Assembly (NCBI GenBank): GCA_021299355.1
Contig: JAJTGG010000006.1
Location: 1-47,969 of the forward strand
Length of the DNA: 47,969 bases
DNA from: Lysobacteraceae bacterium
GTDB taxonomy: Bacteria > Pseudomonadota > Gammaproteobacteria > Xanthomonadales > Xanthomonadaceae
Direction of reading: 5' to 3'
The notes under the pieces were generated by a model, which saw only the letters and a program-made list of their open reading frames with translations, did not search any database and was not told the origin of the DNA. Below are positions 1 through 43,151 of the stretch, piece by piece. Positions within the stretch are counted from its first letter, which is position 1, and the number at the start of each line of letters is the position of its first letter. Made by a program: the position numbers and the translations under genes.

Positions 1-35
1 AGCGCCTGCATGCGGCACGCCTGAAACCCGCACAA

Positions 36-62
36 TAAAAAAGCCACCTGTGCAGGTGGCTG
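36..62 (-). terminator. Rho-independent terminator of tRNA-Val
   Basis: Perfect 9-bp stem (AGCCACCTG paired with CAGGTGGCT) around a 2-nt TG turn. On the minus strand it is followed by six T residues. It lies directly after the 3' CCA of the leftward tRNA-Val. Confidence 0.85.
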
Positions 63-65
63 TTT

Positions 66-140
66 TGGTGGGCGATACAGGGTTCGAACCTGTGACCCCT
101 ACCATGTCAAGGTAGTGCTCTACCGCTGAGCTAATCGCCC
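66..140 (-). tRNA. tRNA-Val (GAC anticodon)
   Basis: Read on the minus strand, this folds as a standard cloverleaf. The acceptor stem is GGGCGAT/ATCGCCC, the D arm contains AGCTCAGCGGTAGAGC, and the anticodon loop TTGACAT carries GAC at 108-106. The T arm contains GGTTCGAACC, and the 3' ACCA is encoded. GAC decodes the valine codons GUC and GUU. The gene has its own promoter and terminator, so it is a single-gene transcription unit. Confidence 0.95.
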
Positions 141-155
141 GAATCCGGGATAGAC

Positions 156-185
156 ATTATACGATAAAGTCCCGCTTTCCGGCAA
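156..185 (-). promoter_or_regulatory. Sigma-70 promoter of tRNA-Val
   Basis: On the minus strand a perfect TATAAT (-10) lies at 161-156. TTGCCG (-35) lies at 185-180, an 18-bp spacer. The predicted start is a few bases upstream of the mature tRNA 5' end, which fits a short tRNA leader. Confidence 0.7.
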
Positions 186-188
186 ATC

Positions 189-2106
189 TCAGCGCAGCAG
201 GGCTTGCTGCTTGAGCTTGGCGATGGTATCCCGGCAGGCCGCGGCCTGCTCGAACTCCAAATTCTGGGCGTGCTTGAACATCTTAGCCTCGAGCTCGTTC
301 AGACGCTTGGCCAGCTGCTGGGCGGTCAGCACCGAGACCCCTGTTTCCGGAGTGGCCGCGGCCTGCTCAGGTTCGCTGCGGGCGCCCTCCATCACATCCA
401 TGATCTCGCGCTTGATTGAGGTCGGCACGATACCGTGCTGGCGGTTGTACTGCTCCTGCTTGGCGCGACGCCGATCGGTTTCGCCGATGGCGGCCTTCAT
501 CGAATCGGTCATGCGATCGGCATACAGGATGGCCTTACCGCGCAGATTGCGGGCGGCCCGGCCGATGGTCTGGATCAGCGACCGGGTCGAGCGCAGGAAG
601 CCTTCCTTGTCGGCATCGAGAATGGCTACCAGCGAGACCTCGGGCATATCCAGACCTTCGCGCAACAGGTTGATGCCGACCAGCACATCGAACACGCCCG
701 TGCTCGGCGAGGTAATCGGTCAGGTTCTCGGCCATGCGTTTGGTGAGCGTGGTAATCAGCACGCGATCGCCGAGTTTGACGCGCTCATGGATCTCGGAAA
801 GCACGTCATCGACCTGCGTGGCCACCGGCCGGATTTCAATCTGCGGATCGACCAGCCCGGTCGGCCGCACCACCAATTCGACCACCTGCCCCTTCGAATG
901 CTCGAGCTCGTAAGGTCCGGGCGTGGCCGACACATACACGCTGCGCGGCGCGCGGCGCTCCCATTCCTCGAACTTCAGCGGCCGGTTGTCGAGCGCCGAA
1001 GGCAGCCGGAAGCCGAAGTTGACCAGGGTTTCCTTGCGCGAACGGTCGCCTTTGTACATGGCGCCCAGCTGCGGCACGGTCACGTGCGATTCATCGACCA
1101 CCAACAATGCATCCGGGGGCAGGTAATCGTAAAGGCACGGCGGCGGTTCGCCGGGCATGTGGCCGGTGAGATGTCGGGAATAGTTTTCGATGCCACTGCA
1201 GAAGCCGACCTCGAGCATCATCTCGATATCGAACTGGGTGCGCTGCGCCAAACGCTGCGCCTCGACCAGCTTGTTCTCGCGGTAGAAGTATTCGAGCCGG
1301 TCTTTCAGCTCGGCCTTGATGGTTTCGACCGCATCCAGGATGGTCCGGCGCGTGGTCACGTAATGCGATTTCGGATACAGGGTATAGCGCGGCAGCTTGC
1401 GGCGCACCTCGCCGGTCAGCGGATCGAACACCGCGATGTTCTCGATGTCGCCGTCGAACAGCTCGACCCGGATCGCCTCGTAATCGCTCTCGGCCGGATG
1501 GATGTCGATGACCTCGCCGCGCACGCGGTAGGTGGCGCGCTTGAGCTCGATATCGTTGCGGGTGTATTGCATCTCGGTCAGACGCCGGATCAGTTCGCGC
1601 TGGTCGATGCGGTCGCCGCGCACCAGATGCAGCACCATGCGGAAATATTCGTTGGGATCGCCCAGGCCGTAGATCGAGGACACCGATGCCACGATGATGG
1701 CATCGCGCCGCTCGAGCAGGGCCTTGGTCGCCGACAGCCGCATCTGCTCGATGTGTTCGTTGATCGAGCTGTCCTTGTCGATGAAGGTGTCGGAAGCCGG
1801 AATATAGGCCTCGGGCTGGTAGTAGTCGTAATAGCTGACGAAGTACTCGACCGCGTTGTCCGGAAAGAAACTCTTGAATTCGCCGTACAGCTGCGCGGCC
1901 AGGGTTTTGTTCGGAGCCAGCACCAGGGTCGGCTTCTGGATGGACTGGATGACGTTGGCGATGGTGAAGGTCTTGCCGGAGCCGGTCACGCCCAGCAGGG
2001 TCTGCGCGGCAATGCCGGATTCGAAGCCGGCAATCAGCTTTTCGATGGCCTGCGGCTGGTCGCCGGCGGGCGAAAACGGGGAAACCAGACGGAAGGGGGT
2101 GTCCAT
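189..2106 (-). pseudogene. uvrB: UvrB excinuclease subunit, disrupted by an internal deletion and frameshift
   Basis: UvrB is the damage-verifying helicase-like subunit of nucleotide excision repair and works with UvrA and UvrC. The N-terminal part reads in one frame from ATG 2106 (start [11 protein letters not shown]), with Walker A GVTGSGKT at residues 39-46 and the [10 protein letters not shown] region. It continues normally to [12 protein letters not shown], ending at base 697. The C-terminal part then resumes in another frame near 695 with [20 protein letters not shown]. It goes on through QTIGRAARN and ends with a normal C-terminal UVR motif, stop at 189. Between EHG and FDVLVG the family has about 26 residues, including the conserved YLHSDIDTVER block; here only 4 nt remain. 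That is a loss of roughly 74 bp, which also shifts the frame. A single-base sequencing error cannot explain it. Both ends are otherwise well conserved, so the lesion is recent or an assembly collapse. An upstream TTG at 2127 is an alternative start. Confidence 0.9.
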
Positions 2107-2220
2107 GCAGACTTTTTTCAGGGCCAATTGGGGATTTTCGCACAGCGCGGCCCCGCTTTCACCTACTTCCGCGCTTTCGGCGTTTATTCAGACTGGAATT
2201 CCCAGCTCCGGAGGATCCCC

Positions 2221-2757
2221 ATGTCCCGTCCTATCCACGGTTTTACCCTGATTGAACTCATCCTCGGTCTGGCCACCGCCGGTATTCTGGCCGGCATAGC
2301 CCTACCGGCTTTTCTTTCAGCGCGCTACGCCGGGGATTCTGCGGCGATGCAGGCCGCCCTGCTGTCCAGTCTGATGCAGTCTTCCCACAAAGCGGCACTA
2401 CACGGCACCCGCACCACCCTGTGCCCGAGCCACGACGGCATCCGCTGCACCCCCAGCTTCGACTGGAGCAAAGGCTGGATCGGGTTCCTGGATAGCAACG
2501 CCAACCGCGAGCGCGAGCCGGATGAAGGGGTCATCCTGCGGCAGACCGAAGTGGAAAACGCCCGCCTGATCAGCAGCAGCGGACGAACCCGGATCGTATT
2601 CCAGGGCAACGGCGGCAATGCCGGCAGTAATGCCACCTTCACCCTGTGCGACCGGCGCGGCGCGGATAAGGCGCAGACCCTGGTGGTCAGCAATACCGGC
2701 AATCTGCGCCGGGGCGTGCCGGATGCCGAACGCACGGCGTTGGCCTGCGTCTTCTGA
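2221..2757 (+). CDS. GspH/FimT-like type IV pilus pseudopilin (orphan)
   Basis: A 178-residue prepilin-like protein. A very short leader (MSRPIHG) precedes the cleavage motif G|FTLIEL, with the conserved Glu at mature position 5 and a single hydrophobic N-terminal helix. The C-terminal half has the loop pattern of FimT/GspH minor pilins (DWSKGWIGFLDSN and FQGNGGNAGSNATFTLCD) and paired cysteines that could form a disulfide. ATG 2221 is chosen because GGAGG lies at 2210-2214 and the start sits just before the pilin leader; the open frame upstream of it is antisense to uvrB. It would be processed by PilD and inserted in the inner membrane as a minor pilin. It is separated from the main minor-pilin cluster by tRNA-Asn and points the other way, so it is a second, separately expressed FimT-type protein. 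Confidence 0.88.
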   Translation: MSRPIHGFTLIELILGLATAGILAGIALPAFLSARYAGDSAAMQAALLSSLMQSSHKAALHGTRTTLCPSHDGIRCTPSFDWSKGWIGFLDSNANREREPDEGVILRQTEVENARLISSSGRTRIVFQGNGGNAGSNATFTLCDRRGADKAQTLVVSNTGNLRRGVPDAERTALACVF

Positions 2758-7119: not shown

Positions 7120-7917
7120 TTAGGTTCCAGTCGGTGGCAAAGCGCAGTTCGCGGAGGCTTCCAGACAGTCGGCACGCACTCTTATACTGCTGCTGATGCC
7201 GCGGGTGACTGTGCCGTCGGCTGACTGACGAAGCTGGCCCTGCAAACCGACGCCGATCTGACGGATGGTCATGGGAGTGGAGGTGGCCGTAGCGGCCTGC
7301 ACGATGTAGCCGCTGGTATCTAATGTAAAACTGCTGATATTAATGATCCGTGGATCGGTCAATGCGCACCACCCTGAAGCGGTATTGCACGTTGTCGGAT
7401 AATTGCTATAGCTCGGCGCGCCGCCGGCACAGGCTGGCGTGAGACCGGGGGCGCTTTCGCCGATTTCAAGCACGCCGACGGTCTGGCCATCGAAGGAATA
7501 GAAGGCAAGGCGCAACGCACGAATTTCACCCTGAGTCCGCTCAACGGTGCCTGGAGTTCCACCGGTACGGTCGTAGGCATAAATGACGCAGCCATCATTT
7601 TTGAGGCCATCGTTATTGACATCATCATCCACAAAAATTCGGGCGAAGGGCGATATCGTCAACGCATTCATAGTCGATGCCGCGGTATAGCGGTTCATGT
7701 TCTCGTCGTAACCGGCACGGCGCAACTCGCGCGAAACGAAGTCCATGGTGTTGCGCAGCTCCTGACTCAAGCGGGTGGACTGTACATATTCGGAGTTGGC
7801 GGTCAGGCTGGACAGGGTAAACGCAAGCACGGCCGAAACAACAATCAGACCGATGGCCAAAGAAATCATCAATTCAACCAGACTGAAGCCCTGTGATTGT
7901 CGTTGATAGGCGGCCAT
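7120..7917 (-). CDS. pilW: PilW-like minor pilin
   Basis: 265 residues from ATG 7917. The leader MAAYQRQSQG precedes FSLVELMISLAIGLIVVSAVLAF, a canonical prepilin helix with Glu at position 5. The downstream RLSQELRNTMDFVSRELRRAGY segment is characteristic of the PilW family, and the length is close to family norms. A GTG at 7962 would extend the frame into fimT. ATG 7917 is preferred because GAGGA lies just upstream, overlapping the fimT stop, which implies translational coupling. PilW is an inner-membrane minor pilin that joins the priming complex for type IV pilus assembly. Confidence 0.9.
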   Translation of the reverse strand: MAAYQRQSQGFSLVELMISLAIGLIVVSAVLAFTLSSLTANSEYVQSTRLSQELRNTMDFVSRELRRAGYDENMNRYTAASTMNALTISPFARIFVDDDVNNDGLKNDGCVIYAYDRTGGTPGTVERTQGEIRALRLAFYSFDGQTVGVLEIGESAPGLTPACAGGAPSYSNYPTTCNTASGWCALTDPRIINISSFTLDTSGYIVQAATATSTPMTIRQIGVGLQGQLRQSADGTVTRGISSSIRVRADCLEASANCALPPTGT

Positions 7918-7924
7918 GGCGTCC

Positions 7925-8533
7925 TCAGTTGCAGCGTCGGTTGGTGTATTGCGGCATATCACTAGCTACATCTGGCTCGCAGACCACGGCGCGCCCGAAC
8001 AGATCGATATTCACTCGCAGGCGGTAGTCGGTGCTGCCGGCAGGACTGGCCAACTCCCAATAACCGGCACTGGTCGGCAGGGCCAGCCCGCCACGTTTAG
8101 GATCGATGACCACCACCCCATTTTTACTTTTTCCGATCCAGTCGCTAGGCGTTCCTGAATATCGAATTCCCTTCCATTCAACCTGATCGACTGGATAGCG
8201 TCCGACATCACAGAAATTGGCGTTACCGGGATTGGTCTCAAAACAATTGCACTGACTATTATCGGCAGCTGTATTGGTGACCGCCGCACCCATACAATAC
8301 TGGGTACTGTTGGTGCTCATCGACACTTTGACCAGAGAATTCCGCTTGAGGGATTCAAAACGGGCATTGGCCCAGAAGCCGATGATTTGATCAGTCGCTC
8401 CACGCAAAGCGCTGCGATGCCGAAATTCATTGAAGGACGGCACGGCTGCCATGAGAATAATCGACAGCAGCGCGATGGTGACTATCAGCTCAATCAGGGT
8501 AAACCCCTGGACGCAAGGCTTTTTTTCGGACAT
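7925..8533 (-). CDS. fimT: FimT/FimU-like minor pilin
   Basis: 202 residues with the leader MSEKKPCVQG followed by FTLIELIVTIALLSIILMAAVPSF (Glu5 present) and the downstream region seen in FimT/GspH proteins (RHRSALRGATDQIIGFWANARFES would be the exposed helix, 24 residues at about 38-61). The C-terminal half has several cysteines (CNCFE, FCDVG) and ends VCEPDVASDMPQYTNRRCN. It is the first gene of the leftward minor-pilin operon, facing away from pilE. FimT-type pilins have been linked to DNA binding during natural transformation in related bacteria; whether this one binds DNA cannot be read from the sequence. Confidence 0.88.
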   Translation of the reverse strand: MSEKKPCVQGFTLIELIVTIALLSIILMAAVPSFNEFRHRSALRGATDQIIGFWANARFESLKRNSLVKVSMSTNSTQYCMGAAVTNTAADNSQCNCFETNPGNANFCDVGRYPVDQVEWKGIRYSGTPSDWIGKSKNGVVVIDPKRGGLALPTSAGYWELASPAGSTDYRLRVNIDLFGRAVVCEPDVASDMPQYTNRRCN

Positions 8534-8660
8534 GCACGATTCCCCGCTCTAGGCACATCCTACTATGCCTGCTGATACCGAGCATGGCAACGGACAGCAC
8601 GATGAACGGCCGGTTTTTCCGATGAGCGACGCCGTCTGTATTGCATTCAGCGCAGGAAGT

Positions 8661-8676
8661 TGGCATGCTTATTGCA
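8661..8676 (+). promoter_or_regulatory. Sigma-54 (-24/-12) promoter of pilE
   Basis: TGGCATGCTTATTGCA matches the RpoN consensus TGGCAYG-N4-TTGCA, with TGGC at 8661-8664 and TGC at 8673-8675 separated by 8 bp. Pilin genes of gammaproteobacteria are commonly driven by RpoN with PilR. The predicted start is about 8687, only about 9 nt before the ATG at 8696 and inside the GGGAG SD (8685-8689). The transcript would therefore be nearly leaderless. Confidence 0.6.
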
Positions 8677-8695
8677 TATCCGGCGGGAGCAGCAC

Positions 8696-9109
8696 ATGCG
8701 CAGCAAAGGTTTTACCCTCATCGAGCTCATGGTCACCCTGGCTATTGTCGGCATTCTGGCCATCATCGCCATTCCCAGCTTCACCGAGCAGATCGCCAAA
8801 AGCCGGCGCGCGGAAGCCATGCGCATCCTCGGCGACATGCAGCTTAGGCAGGAGCGCTGGCGCTCGAACCACACTGAGTACGGCACATGCGATGAATTGG
8901 TTGCTCCGTCAACATGTACCGCATACAACGCGACAATACCCCATTACTCGATCAGCATTACGGGCATAACCCCTACAGGCCACACGCTAACGGCAACCCG
9001 CAAGGGCGCTCAAAGCGATGACCGTTGTGGCGATTTTGTGCTGACTGTAAGCAATGGAGTCGCTTCCAAATCAACCAGCACCGGCGCCGCCAACTGCAAC
9101 TGGCCTTAA
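8696..9109 (+). CDS. pilE: PilE-like type IV pilin
   Basis: 137 residues. The six-residue leader MRSKG|FTLIEL is a textbook type IVa prepilin start, followed by MVTLAIVGILAIIAIPSF and a polar helix (EQIAKSRRAEAMRILGDMQL). The small C-terminal domain contains CDELVAPSTC and RCGDF...ANCNWP cysteines consistent with disulfide-bonded loops. Length and pattern fit the PilE family of minor pilins found in xanthomonad pil clusters. ATG 8696 is chosen for its GGGAG SD and because it starts the leader; upstream in-frame codons would add unsuitable residues before it. It runs divergently from fimT, under its own sigma-54-like promoter. Its TAA shares bases with the ppnN stop codon on the other strand. 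Confidence 0.9.
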   Translation: MRSKGFTLIELMVTLAIVGILAIIAIPSFTEQIAKSRRAEAMRILGDMQLRQERWRSNHTEYGTCDELVAPSTCTAYNATIPHYSISITGITPTGHTLTATRKGAQSDDRCGDFVLTVSNGVASKSTSTGAANCNWP

Positions 9110-10503
9110 CGGACCACCCGGTAGCAGGGGTGATAGACCCCGGAGATCTTCATCCGGCGTTGCTCGACGAAGGATTCCAGCAATTCATCCATGGCCTGCA
9201 TGATGTCGGCATCGCCGGAAATCGTGAACGGTCCGTGCTGCTCGATGGCCTGCATGGCCGGTTCCTTGACATTGCCGGCCACGATACCCGAAAACGCCCG
9301 ACGCAGATTGGCGGCCAATTCATGCAGGGGCTGGTCGCGCTGCAGTTTCAGTGCCGCCATGGCCTCATGGGTCGGCTGGAACGGCTTCTGGAACTCCAAA
9401 GGCACATTGAGCGACCAGTTGAAGAAGAAGGAATCCTTTTCCTTGATACGCTGCTCGCGCACCAGATGGATGCCGCGGCTCATCAGTTTGCCGACGCGCT
9501 CGGCATCATCGACCACGATAGTGTAATGCGCGGCCGCGAGTTCGCCGAGGGTCAGCTTGATGAATCGGTCGATATGCTCGAAATACGCCGCCGAGGCGCG
9601 CGGACCGGTCAACACCAGCGGCATGCAGATCTCGCTGTTGTCGGGATGCAGTAGCAGGCCGAGCAGATACAAGATTTCTTCGGCGGTCCCTACCCCGCCC
9701 GGGAAGGCGATGATGCCGTGTCCGAGCCGTACGAAGGCTTCCAGCCGCTTCTCGATGTCCGGCATGATGACCAGCTCGTTGACGATCGGATTCGGCGATT
9801 CGGCGGCGATGATGCCCGGCTCGGTGATGCCGATGTAGCGGTTGTGGATGCGGCGCTGTTTGGCGTGCGCGATGGTCGCGCCCTTCATCGGTCCTTTCAT
9901 CGCACCCGGTCCGCAGCCGGTGCAGATGTCGAGCGCACGCAGGCCCAGCTCGTAGCCGACCTTCTTGGTGTACATGTACTCATCGCGGCCAATCGAGTGG
10001 CCGCCCCAGCACACCACCAGATTCGGGTCGGTGTTGGGATGCAGCACCGAGGCGTTGCGCAGGATTTCGAACACCGCGCTGGTGATACCGGCATTGGTTT
10101 CCAGATTGAACTTGCCACTGGTCCGGATTTCACTGGAGGTATAGGCGATATCGCGCACCACGGTGAACAGCAGATCGGCCACGCCGCGGATCAGAATGCC
10201 GTCGACGAAGGCAGTGGCCGGCGCATTTTTCAGGTCAAGGCGGATGCCGCGGTCAAGCTGCAGCACTTCGATATCGAAATCCGGATAGCGCACCTGCGCC
10301 GCACGCGGATCGTCGGATTCGGTGCCGGTGGTCAACACCGCCAGGGCACAACGGCGCAGGGTCTCATGCAGGCCGCCCTGGCTGATATCGCGCAGACGGG
10401 TCAGCTCTTCGCGCGACAGCACGTCCATGCCCGAGGGTGTATCGTTGAAGCGGCGCTGTGGTGGAAAAATCTGGGTGCTGATAGTGGGGCTTTCTTTGTT
10501 CAT
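9106..10503 (-). CDS. ppnN: Nucleotide 5'-monophosphate nucleosidase PpnN (LOG family)
   Basis: 465 residues, the usual PpnN (YgdH) length. The core is a Rossmann-like LOG domain with GCGPGAMKGPMKGA at 197-210 and the signature PGGVGTAEE at 268-276. These are flanked by the N- and C-terminal domains found in PpnN but not in short LOG proteins. The enzyme cleaves purine and pyrimidine nucleoside monophosphates to free base and ribose 5-phosphate. In E. coli it is stimulated by (p)ppGpp and supports nucleotide balance during stress. It stands alone between convergent pilE (4-nt overlap, with stop codons interleaved and no terminator seen) and the TonB receptor upstream. Confidence 0.92.
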   Translation of the reverse strand: MNKESPTISTQIFPPQRRFNDTPSGMDVLSREELTRLRDISQGGLHETLRRCALAVLTTGTESDDPRAAQVRYPDFDIEVLQLDRGIRLDLKNAPATAFVDGILIRGVADLLFTVVRDIAYTSSEIRTSGKFNLETNAGITSAVFEILRNASVLHPNTDPNLVVCWGGHSIGRDEYMYTKKVGYELGLRALDICTGCGPGAMKGPMKGATIAHAKQRRIHNRYIGITEPGIIAAESPNPIVNELVIMPDIEKRLEAFVRLGHGIIAFPGGVGTAEEILYLLGLLLHPDNSEICMPLVLTGPRASAAYFEHIDRFIKLTLGELAAAHYTIVVDDAERVGKLMSRGIHLVREQRIKEKDSFFFNWSLNVPLEFQKPFQPTHEAMAALKLQRDQPLHELAANLRRAFSGIVAGNVKEPAMQAIEQHGPFTISGDADIMQAMDELLESFVEQRRMKISGVYHPCYRVVR

Positions 10504-14070: not shown

Positions 14071-14201
14071 GATGATGAGACCTGTTGTGAGATTGGGGAG
14101 TCGATCGGTGCCGCCTGAAAAAGGTAAAGCCCAGCTGAACTACGACGAAAATTTTACCACCTAAAGTTAATTTTATGTATGTTTGATGACGGAAATATGA
14201 C

Positions 14202-24543: not shown

Positions 24544-24679
24544 AATGATGGCACTTCCCCTGAAACAATGCAGTCAGCCTAGGGAATTTAACACAGCGCG
24601 GTTCAAAGATTCACCTGCCGTCGGCCGTATTAGCCATCTCTTGCTACAATGGGCGCCCCTCCCGACCGGAATAAGCGCC

Positions 24680-36745: not shown

Positions 36746-36765
36746 GGCAGTGCCAGATCAATCCG

Positions 36766-43013: not shown

Positions 43014-43151
43014 ATGCGCCTAACATCCGATGCCTTTTTCGACGGCCAGCCGATTCCCGGTGAATCCGCATTCGCGGTGATGGCCGGACACGTGCTGGCC
43101 AGCGCCAGTCTGACCGTGCGCTACACGCTGAATCCGGCCGTGGCGTACTGA
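43014..43151 (+). pseudogene. Internally deleted YbhB/YbcL-like (PEBP) gene, 45 codons left
   Basis: The frame begins MRLTSDAFFDGQPIPGESAF, the N terminus of the YbhB/YbcL (phosphatidylethanolamine-binding) proteins of xanthomonads. It jumps straight into MAGHVLASASLTVRYTLNP, their C terminus. The whole core (usually well over 100 residues, including the DPD/HW ligand-binding motifs) is missing, in frame. The start keeps a good GGAG SD at 43004-43007 and a promoter, and the stop is 2 nt before the iscR-like gene, so the remnant may still be translated and serve as an operon leader. It is not a functional PEBP. Confidence 0.7.

Follow-up and report, generated by a model that had tools for sequence, protein, structure and literature searches.

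The window analysed here, the whole stretch of 47,969 nucleotides, is contig 27 of the 74 that make up a 1.66 Mb draft genome of an uncultured Arenimonas-like bacterium, 85.2% complete and with 0.7% contamination. Its uvrB gene is divided between two reading frames, which raises the question of whether an Arenimonas lineage has lost its sole uvrB or whether the break belongs to the assembly. The initial annotation had reported the gene as out of frame after loss of an internal block of about 74 bp. This is confirmed by the frames, the N-terminal one running to position 697 and the C-terminal one starting at 695 (Table 1), and by BLASTN of window positions 1-2300 against the nearest relatives used for comparison, G001 (uvrB locus L038), G014 (L024) and G006 (L019). 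The alignment extends to 699 (698 for L019), restarts at 697 and lacks exactly 74 bp each time. The flanks of the junction are gap-free against G001 and G014, with a few gaps against G006. In the relatives, 25 residues lie between LAEHG and VFDVLVG, where the draft uvrB has its junction. Both breakpoints have three bases in common (CCC on the plus strand, GGG on the coding strand); the short repeat noted earlier is therefore present, but it is 3 bp long and not a four-base, GGGC-like one. The 74 bp would have been deleted between these 3-bp repeats. A hairpin-driven loss of the block was rejected, as the region in the nearest relative has no folding advantage over shuffled sequences (z +2.05; 199/200 shuffles fold at least as well).

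Table 1. Features at the uvrB end of the window (window coordinates)
Feature	Position	Strand	Description and evidence
tRNA-Val	66-140		Adjoins uvrB
uvrB, whole locus	189-2106	minus	
uvrB C-terminal part	189-695	minus	Other frame, 14 residues / VFDVLVG... onward; end of Helicase_C, UvrB domain, UVR motif
Out-of-frame tail past the junction	535-696	minus	53 foreign residues and a stop; frame reading
Deletion junction	697-699		74 bp of relatives missing, exact point ambiguous owing to 3 shared bases; BLASTN against relatives
uvrB N-terminal part	697-2106	minus	470 native residues, ATG at 2106, MDTPFRLV...TDYLAEHG; UvrB_inter and ResIII domains; solved UvrB structures match, E down to 4.4e-188

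Against TIGR00631 (UvrABC system protein B, cut-off 750.1 bits) the N-terminal part scores 774 bits and the C-terminal part 222.9 bits. The former holds the UvrB interaction domain (PF17757) and the first helicase part; the latter, in a different frame, carries PF12344 (UvrB domain) and PF02151 (UVR motif). Owing to the frame break and the 74-bp loss, no one open frame of the draft uvrB spans the two helicase domains together with the UVR motif. The truncated product of this gene would comprise ~523 residues, without the UVR motif and the last part of the second helicase domain. A UvrB deprived of that domain and motif should be non-functional, and nucleotide excision repair would fail at the UvrB step despite the UvrA, UvrC and UvrD-like helicase that are left. 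Open genes were found for UvrA (955 codons), UvrC (612 codons), a member of the photolyase/cryptochrome family (504 codons) and the UvrD-like helicase (739 codons), which scores below the curated cut-off in the draft and likewise in the three relatives to which this search was extended. A putative Mfd, judged by its length and a weak match to UvrB, is encoded by a frame of 1152 codons. The excision-repair defect proposed in the initial annotation is a prediction.

The comparison with uvrB of close relatives, proposed in the initial annotation, shows the block to be kept throughout: it is present with a constant residue count in 118/118 fetched uvrB loci (117 by pattern, L059 by eye), of which 38 came from relatives and 80 were named, with some genomes counted twice. 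A uvrB match at an E value of 1e-17 or better was obtained for 26 of the 27 genus genomes searched; G020 gave none at this threshold. Among these genomes the source draft is the only one with a broken uvrB inside a contig, while uvrB of G001, G007, G009 and G011 is cut or split by contig ends. As expected of a pseudogene, the disruption is thus missing from close relatives. The search for a second intact uvrB, also proposed, found none in the 85%-complete draft. Nor was a copy of the block found there with the G001 block as query, which matched G001, G006 and G014 as positive controls (3/3). A working UvrB might still be made by frameshifted translation or from two separate fragments, or another protein might substitute, in line with the conservation of both halves and the domains kept in each. 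We consider this very improbable, since the missing residues, constant in number in all 118 loci, cannot be restored by a change of frame and no further uvrB or block came to light.

The alternative named in the initial annotation, a simple assembly collapse, is unlikely with only 3 bp shared. In a k-mer graph, collapse over a repeat requires the repeat to approach the k-mer in length, and no direct repeat spans the junction. Given how assemblers join reads, a junction with three shared bases argues for the existence of reads that carry it. Other routes may have led to the loss, namely a false join, chimeric reads or a minority allele taken as consensus. An artefact of this wider kind is quite possible, if short of probable: the cells would have an intact uvrB, the 74 bp would have been lost in gap closing, through chimeric reads or by a local misjoin, and the other intragenic gaps of 13-235 bp described below would have arisen alike, the large gene losses being real. 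Consistent with an artefact are the intact UvrA, UvrC and UvrD-like genes and the one N gap of the draft, a run of 28 N at position 11808 of L243 (G000:C65:1-20000) and the sole one in the 584 kb of draft read. This run may be a scaffold gap or a withheld stretch; in the former case the draft may have been scaffolded. In a survey of assembly errors, many purported pseudogenes are attributed to such errors (PMC11017572). A genome-contig scan, which may omit records of the source genome itself, returned no near-identical record.

The age of the break was assessed from codons private to the draft. In the C-terminal half of uvrB (sister G001, outgroup G014) 17 of these are synonymous and 3 nonsynonymous; in the N-terminal half, where the sister was G014 and the outgroup G006 and the branch is hence longer, the counts are 42 and 2. 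Both halves carry the signature of purifying selection, and the pooled counts of 5 nonsynonymous and 59 synonymous codons limit the neutral share of the branch to about 5% at most, at a neutral ratio near 3.07. Hence, the break is either very young or absent from the cells. Relaxed selection after the break was not detected, and a very recent break would look alike.

To place the lesion in its genomic context, orthologous stretches were compared with the two closest relatives, ~199 kb of the draft aligning with G001 (93.1% identity over called ORFs) and ~201 kb with G014 (87.0%). Private deletions of at least 20 bp number 14 in the draft as against a single one in each of G001 and G014, with about 180-205 kb of alignment per genome pair; the listing holds 15 pairs for the draft, one of them entered twice. 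In this sample, which is not the whole genome, the draft thus exceeds its sister lineages in gene-removing deletions. Seven of the 14 are larger than 480 bp, and 6 of these 7 each remove one gene or two, entirely or almost so, among the losses an agmatinase, a PotF-like binding protein and a HerA-like ATPase. The genes next to the six gene-removing junctions are open on both sides in L190, L195, L199 and L202 and on one side in L191, with none in view in L198. Random loss in assembly would be expected to disregard gene ends. At the seventh large deletion, at window position 43085, 489 bp of both G001 and G014 are missing and with them most of a 237-codon YbhB/YbcL-like gene. Length differences also occur elsewhere in the window: positions 24611-24639 hold 27 bp opposite 766 bp in G001, with one gene that we take to be TonB-like from its appearance, and opposite ~2.2 kb in G014, and at 36754 the draft has 921 bp fewer than G001, where a small ORF and a portion of a second one are missing.

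The other seven private deletions measure less than 250 bp, every one of them inside a gene: uvrB (74 bp), alanine dehydrogenase (29 bp), a sulfurtransferase (227 bp), a PuuR-like regulator (100 bp), a YbbP-like permease (117 and 111 bp) and a lysine/alanine-rich protein (48 bp). The reading frame is disrupted in the first four of these genes. Further frame-breaking gaps, seen against G001 alone, affect a DadA-like gene (235 bp), an EamA transporter (130 bp), rhlB near its end (13 bp) and a DeaD-like gene near its start (86 bp), the last lying ahead of the helicase domain and perhaps harmless. In L195 (G000:C46:20000-39000) the missing agmatinase and the frame-breaking gaps in the alanine dehydrogenase (29 bp) and PuuR-like (100 bp) genes fall within 4.3 kb, at 14104, 16542 and 18359. 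Both deletions in the YbbP-like permease, at 9896 and 11052 of L202 (G000:C58:2000-21000), are in frame and leave the gene open at 754 versus 830 codons.

When the relatives' genes were tested one by one, 15 deletion rows, 8 of them frame-breaking, were obtained for the draft against 186 G001 genes (the 489-bp deletion counting twice), and 9 rows against 210 G014 genes, 6 of them frame-breaking and one of these six a 14-bp gap common to G001. The controls gave 1/146 spanned genes of G014 in G001 and 0/163 of G001 in G014. That these two drafts are almost free of such gaps in the same test, in spite of being in more contigs (190 and 90 versus 74), speaks against an artefact. So does the nature of the genes with small gaps, since those that could be named are, from what we know of their families, presumably dispensable. 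The gap lengths show no visible selective filtering, as a length divisible by three is found for 6 of the 14 distinct intragenic gaps against G001, where ~5 are expected by chance.

Among the genes with lesions, the picture of decay is mixed. It is absent from the alanine dehydrogenase (0 nonsynonymous and 30 synonymous private codons despite its frame-breaking gap), PuuR-like, EamA, uvrB and YbbP-like genes, which favours an artefact. Pairwise dN/dS is high in the MPST, DadA-like and rpoN genes; the DadA-like, EamA and rpoN measures are pairwise and unpolarised, and for MPST the polarised counts (3/13 private codons in the draft, 4/12 in the sister) reveal no excess. Across 147 called ORFs, some of them in a wrong frame, private nonsynonymous and synonymous codons stand at 724:3216 in the draft versus 388:2686 in the sister (p about 7e-11), a raised share as expected under weaker selection. 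Together, the whole-gene losses and the additional nonsynonymous change suggest that the lineage is really shedding genes.

Small lesions were searched for in two ways. From the draft's own open frames, 40 of the 42 other window ORFs aligned to at least one relative, and the three ORF-relative pairs whose net shift was no multiple of three were each contradicted by the other relative. These alignments argue against a generally error-ridden window, in a test that is weak because only frames already open in the draft enter it. Starting from the relatives' genes, rows were obtained for 15/175 and 15/194 genes in the draft, and in the controls for 7/134 (G014 genes in G001) and 4/152 (G001 genes in G014). 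Among 19 re-examined rows, gaps already listed being set aside, rpoN is the sole clear frameshift. Several of the others have more nonsynonymous than synonymous changes and look like wrong-frame ORFs, while others have a stop ahead of the domain and look like over-long starts; a DUF2066 gene (L228:15523) has gaps of 1 and 18 bp ahead of its domain. The rpoN gene (sigma-54; L201, G000:C26:1-19000, 7868-9251) carries 4 bases more than in G001, which shifts its frame. Its pairwise dN/dS ranks 169 of 178, and the two features together resemble a decaying gene, which speaks against an artefact. Real pseudogenes have small frameshifts more commonly than mid-size gaps, and the draft has the opposite balance, one clear frameshift as against mid-size gaps that break at least six genes, which again favours an artefact. 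The lack of decay in several genes with small gaps and the scarcity of small frameshifts fit either very fresh events or assembly error.

On balance, we lean towards a real and recent deletion that inactivated the sole uvrB of this Arenimonas lineage, or towards a deletion allele in part of the sampled population. We infer that the deletion is present in cells and that it may be fixed. The loss of uvrB would then be part of a lineage-specific wave of deletions that removes or breaks dispensable genes, with uvrB as a very recent casualty. Only tentatively do we extend this to a lineage now undergoing rapid reductive evolution, whose private deletions in the sample exceed those of its sister by an order of magnitude and which has just lost nucleotide excision repair through a deletion in its only uvrB, the other components of the pathway being still in place. 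Judging by titles, no published account of genome reduction or streamlining in Arenimonas was found. A real deletion would offer an early snapshot of repair-gene loss in genome shrinkage, with UvrA and UvrC left without their partner and uvrB kept in close relatives, and one could follow at an early stage in which order repair genes are lost and how this affects the deletion rate. If the break is an artefact, it is a warning of several false breaks in conserved genes of the draft.

Compared with uvrB as defined by NCBIfam TIGR00631, the draft copy is the same gene and differs from all 118 loci by the 74-bp loss and the frame break. The survey of assembly errors, which deals with frameshifts and internal stops in general, resembles the present case in that frame breaks occur in the genes of one draft; as far as its description goes, the errors it covers do not include a clean loss of 74 bp with three shared bases at the junction (PMC11017572). 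The closest biological parallel is found in the clade I symbionts of vesicomyid clams, for which a published account describes degraded uvrB and uvrC, uvrB being broken by deletions, with uvrA and mfd intact, in the course of reductive genome evolution (PMC5310779). The draft shares with them a uvrB broken by deletion and a retained uvrA. According to the same account, the symbionts are intracellular and their uvrB is highly fragmented and was seen in PCR products, whereas the draft has one fresh lesion, seen in the assembly alone, and an intact uvrC (PMC5310779). In kind, the uvrB loss of the draft would match that of the clam symbionts, at an earlier stage and in a different group.
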